Shown: positions 772-46,457 of the stretch, piece after piece | Numbering within the stretch: the first letter of the stretch is position 1 | Layout of the letters: every line of letters begins with the position of its first letter | NCBI RefSeq assembly: GCF_900155545.1 | Contig: NZ_LT732526.1 | Span: 1,031,050-1,095,049 of the forward strand | Source: Clostridium sp. Marseille-P2415 | GTDB taxonomy: Bacteria; Bacillota; Clostridia; Lachnospirales; Lachnospiraceae | Length of the DNA: 64,000 nucleotides | Reading direction: 5' to 3' | The notes under the pieces: generated by a model | The model's input: only the letters and a program-made list of their open reading frames with translations | What the model was told of the DNA's origin: nothing | Databases searched by the model: none | Program-made: the position numbers and the translations under genes

Positions 772-1272
772 TTATCCTCCCGCCCCTGAGTGCGGTAAAT
801 GTGCCCTCAGAAAGAGTGTTATTATGCACTCCCCTTCCCTCCGCCATCATTACTGGCTTCTTTGGTACTATGAGAGTGTCCGACTGCCTGTGACTCCTTT
901 GATTTCCTCCTTGTCATCGTTGTACGTCATACCTGCATGCAGCAGTTATCTGCTTTGCAGGAAATCACAGGCTCTCTCCAGTTGACTGATTAGTCATTGT
1001 AAAACATGATTGGCCCTTGGACTCCGTCAAAGCCATAACAAACTCGCTTAACGCTTGTTATGATGTTGCCTTCCGCATGGATAAACTGCGTCGGCCTTTA
1101 AGACTTTGTAAAATTTCGAAGCTCGATAGCATTGCAACCCTGTTTCCTGACTGTCTACGCTTAGCCTTGCCTGTTACCAGACAACACCCAAGACTCGCTA
1201 ACGGTGGCTCGCTACGCCTTGCCGTATGGGATTTCCACCCACTAAACCAATCGCCCTTTTCTGGACGCGCTC
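772..1272 (-). ncRNA. Group II intron RNA, domains I to IV (5' portion)
   Basis: This stretch has no convincing reading frame on either strand. On the minus strand it is rich in short stems and purine runs, as expected for the folded domain I-III core of a group II ribozyme, and it ends in the ribosome binding site GGAGGATAA of the maturase, normally inside domain IV. No individual domain was folded by hand; the assignment rests on position between the intron 5' end and the reverse transcriptase. Confidence 0.6.
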
Positions 1273-6030: not shown

Positions 6031-6100
6031 ATTCATCTCCTTCTTTCTCTACACTCTTATTATTATATGAATCTCACGATATAAATGCAAGTAATTTGTA

Positions 6101-6190
6101 TTTACGCGGGCAACGAGCCAAATACAAGCTGGCTTGCATCTGGCGACTGCCGCGATAACTTAGAAACTCGCAAAGCGTGTTTCTAAGTTA
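6101..6190 (-). repeat. Dispersed two-hairpin palindromic repeat, copy A
   Basis: Read on the minus strand the element starts at the stop codon of the gene before it. Hairpin 1 is TAACTTAGAAAC-aCGCtttGCGa-GTTTCTAAGTTA, a 12-bp perfect outer stem. Hairpin 2 pairs GCGGCA..GCCAgATgCAAGC with GCTTGtATtTGGC..TTGCCCGC. A second copy lies at 45861-45955 on the other strand. The internal segments are almost identical in the two copies, while the outer stem of hairpin 1 and the tip of hairpin 2 differ yet stay complementary. It could be a REP/MITE-like element or a structured RNA. Confidence 0.85.
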
Positions 6191-45860: not shown

Positions 45861-45955
45861 AACCGGAAGAAACACGCTCTGCGAGTTTCTACGGTTATTG
45901 CGGCAGTCGCCAAATGAACATGTTTACATGTTCGCTTGGCTCGTTGCCCGCATAA
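45861..45955 (+). repeat. Dispersed two-hairpin palindromic repeat, copy B
   Basis: Second copy of the element at 6101-6190, here on the plus strand. Hairpin 1 is AACCGgaAGAAAC-aCGCtctGCGa-GTTTCTaCGGTT, and hairpin 2 pairs GCGGCA..GCCAAatGAACATG with CATGTTCgcTTGGC..TTGCCCGC around a TTTA loop. AGAAACACGCTYTGCG, GCGGCAGTCGCCA and TTGGCTCGTTGCCCGC are shared with copy A, whereas the variable stems differ but still pair. It lies in the 250-bp gap between the LRR gene and the DUF975 fragment. Confidence 0.85.
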
Positions 45956-45996
45956 ATAAAAACAAAGGTTCAACCCCTTAAGAAAAGAGTTGAACC
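45954..45996 (-). terminator. Terminator after the DUF975 fragment
   Basis: GGTTCAAC and GTTGAACC form an 8-bp stem, followed on the minus strand by TTTGTTTTTATTT. It lies just after the DUF975 gene and next to repeat copy B. Confidence 0.8.
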
Positions 45997-46007
45997 CATT
46001 GGACCGT

Positions 46008-46457
46008 TTATTCGAACACAGCCGTTTCCTCATATACAACGGTTTTTGGTTTTATGGCATTATAATAATTAGCATAGGTAACCATCATATAGGGATATAC
46101 GTAGATATTAGCCAGAAAACAGGTAACCAGTACCAGAAGCTGCCATAGGATAAAAGAAAGTTCCAGAACAAAGAACTCCCATTTATGGCCGACCATCATT
46201 TCCCTGCTTTCACAGATGCACTGCATCACGCCCTTATCCGGGTTCTCAACCAGAACAAAAATCGCCTGAGAGTAACGGTAAGCGGCTATAATGCCCGGAA
46301 TAAGAAAAAGCAAGGACCACAATATGGTAAACAATGCGATCATAATGGACAGTCCCAATGCTTTCAGCAAATACTTTGTGCTTGCAAACAGGTCCCCATA
46401 TGACATGGTGCTATCCCGGTTGGCAACCTTTAAACAGTAAGACTGATATCCAAACAT
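46008..46457 (-). CDS. DUF975 family membrane protein, N-terminally truncated
   Basis: A 149-aa protein with three to four hydrophobic segments. The C-terminal blocks of DUF975 are clear: SYGDLFASTKYLLKALGLSI, LLFLIPGIIAAYRYSQA, SREMMVGHKWEFFVLELSFI and YVYPYMMVTYANYYNAI. As I know the family, members are about 200-250 aa and begin with two further membrane helices, which are missing here. The frame is preceded directly by the recG stop and an AT palindrome, and the ATG has no good ribosome binding site. It looks like a gene that lost its 5' end. Confidence 0.65.
   Translation of the reverse strand: MFGYQSYCLKVANRDSTMSYGDLFASTKYLLKALGLSIMIALFTILWSLLFLIPGIIAAYRYSQAIFVLVENPDKGVMQCICESREMMVGHKWEFFVLELSFILWQLLVLVTCFLANIYVYPYMMVTYANYYNAIKPKTVVYEETAVFE

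Follow-up and report, generated by a model that had tools for sequence, protein, structure and literature searches.

What kind of object is a short, structured sequence that recurs on opposite strands at two intergenic sites, almost 40 kb apart, in one bacterial genome? We addressed this question for a stretch of 64,000 nucleotides from Clostridium sp. Marseille-P2415 (the window), in which a first-pass annotation made from the letters alone had noted such a repeat and had offered two readings of it, a REP/MITE-like element moved in trans or a structured RNA domain. The two copies and their parts lie as follows.

6100-6103, + strand: target motif ATTT directly 5' of copy A (sequence)
6104-6190, + strand: copy A, whole element (covariance model, 83.7 bits, E 2e-17; limits refined)
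6105-6154, + strand: copy A hairpin 1, a conserved base with an ACGA/GAC internal loop and a variable tip (folding, alignment, covariation)
6156-6190, + strand: copy A hairpin 2, TAACTTAGAAAC/GTTTCTAAGTTA around CGCAAAGCG (folding, alignment, covariation)
45861-45953, - strand: copy B, whole element (covariance model, 112.9 bits, E 6e-25; limits refined)
45957-45954, - strand: target motif ATTT directly 5' of copy B (sequence)
45899-45952, - strand: copy B hairpin 1 (sequence, folding, alignment)
45861-45896, - strand: copy B hairpin 2 (sequence, folding, alignment)
45967-45997, - strand: terminator-like hairpin, then a T tract, just upstream of copy B (sequence; z -4.5, locus L004)

Anatomy of the element

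The positions and the opposite orientation of the two copies were confirmed, and the conserved blocks interrupted by arms that differ and still pair, which had drawn attention to the repeat, are real in the alignment. Copies A and B and eight further full copies in the own-genome alignment have a common plan consisting of ATTT or TTTT, hairpin 1 and hairpin 2; the ATTT motif is also seen in the empty sites of other copies. Hairpin 1 of the full copies in this genome reads RYGCGGGCAACGAGCCAA, a variable tip and TTGGCGACTGCCGCG with small variation, and it retains the ACGA/GAC internal loop along with one unpaired base. Hairpin 2 reads AACCGGAGAAACTCGCARAGCGTGTTTCTTCCGGTT or a variant, with the core CGCARAGCG kept in most of these copies. 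The element has a length of about 90-190 bases and no gene of its own, and no terminal inverted repeats are present at its ends in the own-genome alignment. Copy A folds with a z score of -2.95 on the + strand of the window and -6.01 on the - strand, copy B with -4.58 and -5.74, respectively, in each case better than 200 of 200 shuffles.

The surroundings bear out the initial description in part. Damaged or unusual genes were said to adjoin both copies, and this holds for copy B, where the truncated upstream open reading frame (46008-46457, - strand) is only the C-terminal piece of a DUF975 protein by Pfam; the frame adjoining copy A has no Pfam match. The statement that no transposase is near stands in that none was found beside the copies, and is qualified by pieces of a group II intron in the first 1.2 kb of the window. 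Specifically, positions 1-681 and 1012-1235 (- strand) hold a piece of a group II intron reverse transcriptase (RT) and an RF02005 intron domain, which follow immediately on the stop codon of a gene that looks, by eye, ABC-permease-like. Eight places in the genome give this same RT score (334.2 bits, 432 aa frame).

Full-length and shortened copies in the genome

The 14-mer CGGGCAACGAGCCA has 10 exact occurrences in the 5.25-Mb genome (G000), and 37 occurrences with at most two mismatches versus 11 for a backwards control. When the first 30 of these 37 places were judged, 24 were real copies, 11 full-length and 13 shortened, and six (L021, L022 and L026-L029) were taken as chance matches; the seven other places, which had no locus, were left out. 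A covariance model built from ten copies gave 41 matches at E<=1 in the same genome, 11 of them at >=83 bits, with some of the weak matches being opposite strands of strong ones. A hairpin-2 pattern search revealed additional shortened copies. The genome thus holds many copies beyond A and B, with a tally of 11 full-length and at least 13 shortened.

Among the shortened forms, L008 joins the hairpin 1 left arm directly to the hairpin 2 right arm, and L007 and L019 may, from their sequence, be decayed forms of the same kind. An identical internal junction is present at separate sites in L395, L396 and L401, and likewise in L009 and L018, which suggests that shortened forms may move too. An enlarged form also exists, with a palindrome of about 56 bases nested in the hairpin 1 tip of L002 (G000:C9:844636-844789), bringing that element to about 154 bases.

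Insertion junctions and empty sites

Comparison with homologous empty sites mapped the insertion point to the 3' side of ATTT in this genus and of TTTATT in other genera. The resolved empty sites show no target duplication and no base loss, and the orientation of the element is fixed 5'-to-3' relative to the T-rich target. At a site beside a tRNA gene the element is absent from all nine homologues aligned (15 were fetched), with eight reading CTCATGATTT^CTCATGG and one reading CTCATGATCT^CTCATGG (ATCT for ATTT). This site is filled exactly at the junction in G000 and five other species, and the CTCATG repeat found there predates the insertion. At a second site, beside a gene named by eye as adk, seven homologues were aligned, five of which are too changed for base-level reading; the remaining two (L373 and L382) read GTGTTATTT^AACCTTAAG, and the site is filled in G001 between ATTT and AACC.

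In other genera, comparison of L141 with L333 gives an exact junction, GGATTTAT^TGGGAG. Two further copies, L167 in Hungatella (compared with G094) and L182 in Blautia parvula (compared with G148), are consistent in length and reading frame with TTTAT(T)^; their homologues are 87% and 74% identical and do not contain TTTAT itself. Homologues of L132 are too diverged at the junction to read. The L182 copy interrupts an IS200-like transposase gene. Two sites are not clean. At L012, compared with G008 across flanks that are 95 and 99% identical, three bases of the expected left flank are missing. L023 has TTTAT on both sides, and nine of its ten relatives are empty while one (L270) aligns poorly.

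The junction is also visible in the copies themselves. TTT precedes all 24 copies in this genome and ATTT precedes 18 of them, and most start with RYGCG. Other genera have (T)CCCGCG-like ends, as in TTTATT^CCCGCG; in 60 such copies, chosen by their end motif, one upstream position is T in 60/60 and conservation ends right behind the chosen end.

Terminator-like hairpins and genomic context

The 55 bases upstream of the copies in this genome fold with a mean z of -4.58, with z<=-2 in 21/24, versus a mean of -0.24 and z<=-2 in 2/24 downstream. The last G-C pair of the upstream hairpin is 4-13 nt from the insertion point, with a median of 9 (23/24 copies). Copy A is an exception with no strong upstream hairpin (z -0.2). 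In other genera, for the 114 of 123 core matches that have enough flank, z<=-2 was observed upstream in 37/114 and downstream in 4/114. This lower rate of upstream hairpins suggests that the T-rich motif is the basic requirement. The terminator preference may reflect recognition of folded DNA, survival where insertions are least harmful, or both.

Two of the 20 loci scanned lie behind riboswitches and before the next gene, L012 behind a TPP riboswitch and L023 behind a glycine riboswitch. Six species share orthologous copies at the tRNA gene, and five share them around recD2. Scores are lower for the recD2 copies, whose decayed look is what dead insertions would show; the tRNA-gene copies are better kept.

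Covariation of the stems

In a first set of 56 matches (51 distinct), aligned by fitting to the structure and with one row being the opposite strand of another match, 196 cells changed on both sides of a stem versus 58.5 in shuffles, with 0 of 500 shuffles reaching the observed value. In a second set of 112 hairpin-1 matches (100 distinct), drawn from 100 of 119 loci and informative mainly in the tip because the core is fixed by the search pattern, the count was 217 versus 69.4. The covariation on which the first-pass annotation relied is therefore strong, but it need not reflect selection on structure, since copying from one palindrome arm to the other during repair (template switching) would also give paired changes.

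In an RNA, G-U pairs would be expected to be accepted more readily than A-C on the transcribed strand itself. The G-T and A-C stem mismatches number 91:83 in the first set (p 0.60) and 32:29 in the second (p 0.80), counted in alignments fitted to the structure and over cells that are non-independent events. As the two mismatch types are equally common, no RNA strand is visibly preferred, and this symmetry leaves the proposal of a structured RNA domain unsupported. The element also has no match in Rfam 15 at the gathering score, and the loose-threshold matches (mir-2012, snoRNAs, HOTTIP) were taken as chance level.

Distribution among genomes

With the first covariance model (R1) the element was found in 11 of 61 genomes comprising our own and its relatives: eight of the 25 genomes of the genus, our own among them, and a single genome from each of three further genera; a later model (R2) added one weak match, in G029. 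Of the 397 genomes sampled from the family, 177 (158 of 334 genera) are matched by a hairpin-1 model built from 29 sequences; in the class the figure is 13 of 391, with five of these lying outside the family. Since only 13 or 14 candidates were scored per genome, the copy numbers are minimum values. The search of other Lachnospiraceae that the annotation had called for thus answered the objection that no further copies might exist, as the lack of an Rfam match answered the one that the repeat might belong to a known Rfam family.

The exact hairpin-1 core pattern is present in at least 119 stretches of named genomes. Among the matches listed (80), most labels are Lachnospiraceae or its genera, including Blautia, Dorea, Hungatella, Eisenbergiella, Acetatifactor, Lacrimispora, Enterocloster and others; further labels among them are broad (Clostridia, Eubacteriales), and one is a Muribaculaceae bin of 880 bases. 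From the labels of the named matches, the sampled family appears to be Lachnospiraceae. Neither subtype matched any plasmid record; one subtype matched one of 50,697 phage records, and the exact core appeared in one stretch of the viral contigs.

All five matches outside the family have, by eye, a second palindrome after hairpin 1. That of L441 has the same hairpin-2 core as our genome, those of L442 and L445 are related, and those of L444 and L440 are other sequences. Within the family and outside the genus, hairpin 2 is usually GTCAAATACCCCGC...GCGGGGTATTTGAC(T), sometimes with extra hairpins. These differing hairpin-2 sequences behind the same hairpin 1 indicate that hairpin 1 is the constant part and hairpin 2 the changing one. 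Tandem or closely spaced hairpin-1 units are seen at L146, L191, L222, L123 and L207, an arrangement that resembles modular repeats.

Search for the enzyme that moves the element

The first-pass annotation had proposed to look for RAYT or IS200-type transposases; no adjacent partner was found, and Y1 presence does not track the carriers. Specifically, Y1 transposase (PF01797) is present in 7/11 carriers and 30/50 non-carriers, and carriers G008, G014, G025 and G035 have no match to PF01797. Two of these, G008 and G014, are single-contig genomes with 15 and 10 copies that look old. Six of the 13 Y1 loci of our own genome were examined, with no adjacent copy and only 4-mismatch chance matches to the element. 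Group II RT (E<=1e-30) is present in 5/11 carriers and 26/50 non-carriers. These carriers are those of model R1; counting G029 (R2), the values become 8/12 versus 29/49 for Y1 and 6/12 versus 25/49 for RT. We therefore rejected both as demonstrated partners, Y1 for want of an adjacent gene and of correlation with carriers, and group II RT for want of correlation.

The open reading frames beside 120 loci were clustered and the 25 largest clusters were inspected by eye; Pfam on representatives of the five largest identified kinases, ABC transporters, MatE and LysR, and no transposases. Inverted copy pairs about 2.43 kb apart in five genomes were considered as the ends of an autonomous transposon and rejected, as the copies are diverged and recD2 is the gene enclosed, as read in two of the five pairs (L098-L102, each from a different species of the genus). 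A closer pair at L180, 1.45 kb apart, encloses no transposase among its open reading frames by eye. A non-exhaustive search at 6 of the 13 own Y1 loci and beside the element loci found no autonomous tnpA/tnpB element sharing these ends.

Discussion

The dispersed copies, exact ends, empty sites and absence of a resident gene support that part of the first-pass annotation which held the repeat to be moved in trans. We consider it most probable (at roughly 0.55) that this is a non-autonomous two-hairpin DNA element moved by enzymes that act on folded DNA, most likely of the IS200/IS605-like (Y1/HUH) type. Enzymes of that type place their elements 3' of a short, fixed, T-rich motif and leave no duplication, and these elements carry a hairpin at each end; the same combination in our element is what favors this chemistry. 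An enzyme provided in trans would recognize the folded hairpins, whether single-stranded or extruded as a cruciform, and would cut at both feet and rejoin the strand 3' of the target motif, in the way of IS200/IS605-type Y1 (HUH) transposases. Hairpin 1 would be the constant recognition part and hairpin 2 interchangeable, and in older copies host repair may have cut back or corrected the palindromes.

Several observations speak against this reading. Folding of only one strand predicts more G-T than A-C mismatches, and the equal counts argue against it. The two unclean empty sites (L012 and L023) and the position of copy A without a strong upstream hairpin also count against it. As hairpin 1 begins at the insertion point, there is no room for an IS200/IS605 guide sequence; the absent guide stretch and the absent enzyme are real weaknesses of the IS200/IS605 reading.

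The most intriguing alternative, although an unlikely one, is that class C group II introns supply the machinery of retromobility and that the element exploits it, being a SINE-like parasite or relic that the intron RT copies from RNA into the same single-stranded terminator targets; a similar target geometry speaks for it. Our elements lie 4-13 nt behind a hairpin and seven group II introns 6-11 nt behind one, a comparison that serves as illustration only as these introns are 7 of 10 loci tried in our own and related genomes, with ends picked by GTGYG plus a preceding hairpin and with domains assigned by Rfam that identify them only as group II introns. Group II introns have GTGYG as their 5' ends, and the RYGCG start of most own copies resembles it. 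According to PMC10190682, the target of the E. rectale class C intron seen by cryo-EM is a 12 bp DNA stem, a short spacer and C-T-T-T^T, and PMC8919778 places class C introns directly behind terminators. The lack of target duplication also fits, and G000, which has the youngest-looking copies, has 12 RT matches. However, Rfam detects no intron domain in the element, so reverse-splicing should be impossible, and RT was found in only 5/11 carriers and in 26/50 non-carriers. In other genera the junction is TTTATT^CCCGCG and a strong hairpin in front of it is mostly lacking, and the stem mismatches reveal no RNA strand. The specific version of this idea, in which a SINE-like parasite with neither ribozyme nor RT uses the intron RT and its preference for folded terminators across the whole family, appears quite doubtful.

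It is rather improbable that the mover is another trans-acting recombinase or an unknown single-strand integrase; that neither Y1 nor group II RT tracks the carriers would be in keeping with such an enzyme, for which there is no positive evidence. Movement of a true REP sequence by a RAYT (TnpA-REP) transposase would explain multi-copy imperfect hairpins with conserved mismatches and the tandem arrays at L146, L191 and L222. This is nonetheless very unlikely, given that Y1 presence does not follow the carriers, that no RAYT gene was found flanked by the element, and that hairpin 1 is nearly constant across a family, unlike REPs, which are reported to be species-specific (PMC6006769). Highly improbable is an RNA whose structure serves the host, as a leader, spacer or processing element, and which spread by duplication. 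The strong covariation, the orthologous copies at the tRNA gene and recD2 and the two riboswitch neighbors would suit it; set against these are mismatch counts that are nearly equal (91:83 and 32:29), exact insertion with empty sites, recD2 copies that look decayed, and no Rfam family.

Judged against Rfam 15 and the open-access literature only, this is a real, widespread two-hairpin mobile repeat for which we found no name or description; among the literature matches listed for the short string ggggtatttgac, the texts concern work on animal or human cells, many of them dealing with microRNAs. The element is carried by nearly half of the sampled genomes of one family, by match labels a main gut-bacterial one. 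As it inserts next to terminators without duplication, in two cases behind riboswitches, it is likely to contribute regulatory variation and offers a natural marker for tracing strain history. Identification of the mover would either widen HUH single-strand transposition to include a new architecture or uncover a bacterial retroelement parasite.

Comparison with known systems

Membership in REP/RAYT, MITE, group II intron or Rfam families fails on the features tested. REP and REPIN sequences with their RAYTs resemble our element in being numerous short hairpins with conserved mismatches and no gene that are thought to be moved in trans. They differ in that our element is a unit of two unlike hairpins, has no partner transposase that we found, and is conserved over a whole family plus some genomes beyond. 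The REP foot is GTAG or GTGG, whereas our 5' ends are RYGCG-like or (T)CCCGCG-like, and a partner gene flanked by the repeat is not seen, with 4/11 carriers devoid of PF01797 and no adjacent copy at any of the six Y1 loci, of 13 in G000, that were examined. Class C (IIC) group II introns likewise lie behind terminator hairpins at a similar distance, with a T-rich target, no duplication and a GTGYG-like end; in contrast, our element has about 90 bases, no RT and, by Rfam, neither domain V nor catalytic domains, and in other genera the upstream hairpin is mostly missing. A classical MITE is at variance with the lack of terminal inverted repeats and of target duplication.

BOX, ERIC and RU are small, modular, palindromic repeats that form variant families with interchangeable parts. 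Our element is likewise modular and palindromic with interchangeable parts, a likeness drawn from description and between different hosts. PATEs are non-autonomous derivatives of IS200/IS605. As in PATEs, hairpins lie near both ends, there are no terminal inverted repeats, and, apart from the two unclean sites, the target is a short, fixed, T-rich motif that lies just 5' of the insertion and is not duplicated. The differences are that no tnpA/tnpB-bearing element with these ends was found, and that IS200/IS605 ends carry a guide sequence 5' of the hairpin foot (PMC6006769), whereas in our element the foot is at the junction and the guide stretch is absent. By this comparison, the element would work most like a non-autonomous IS200/IS605-type element that does without the guide-sequence feature.
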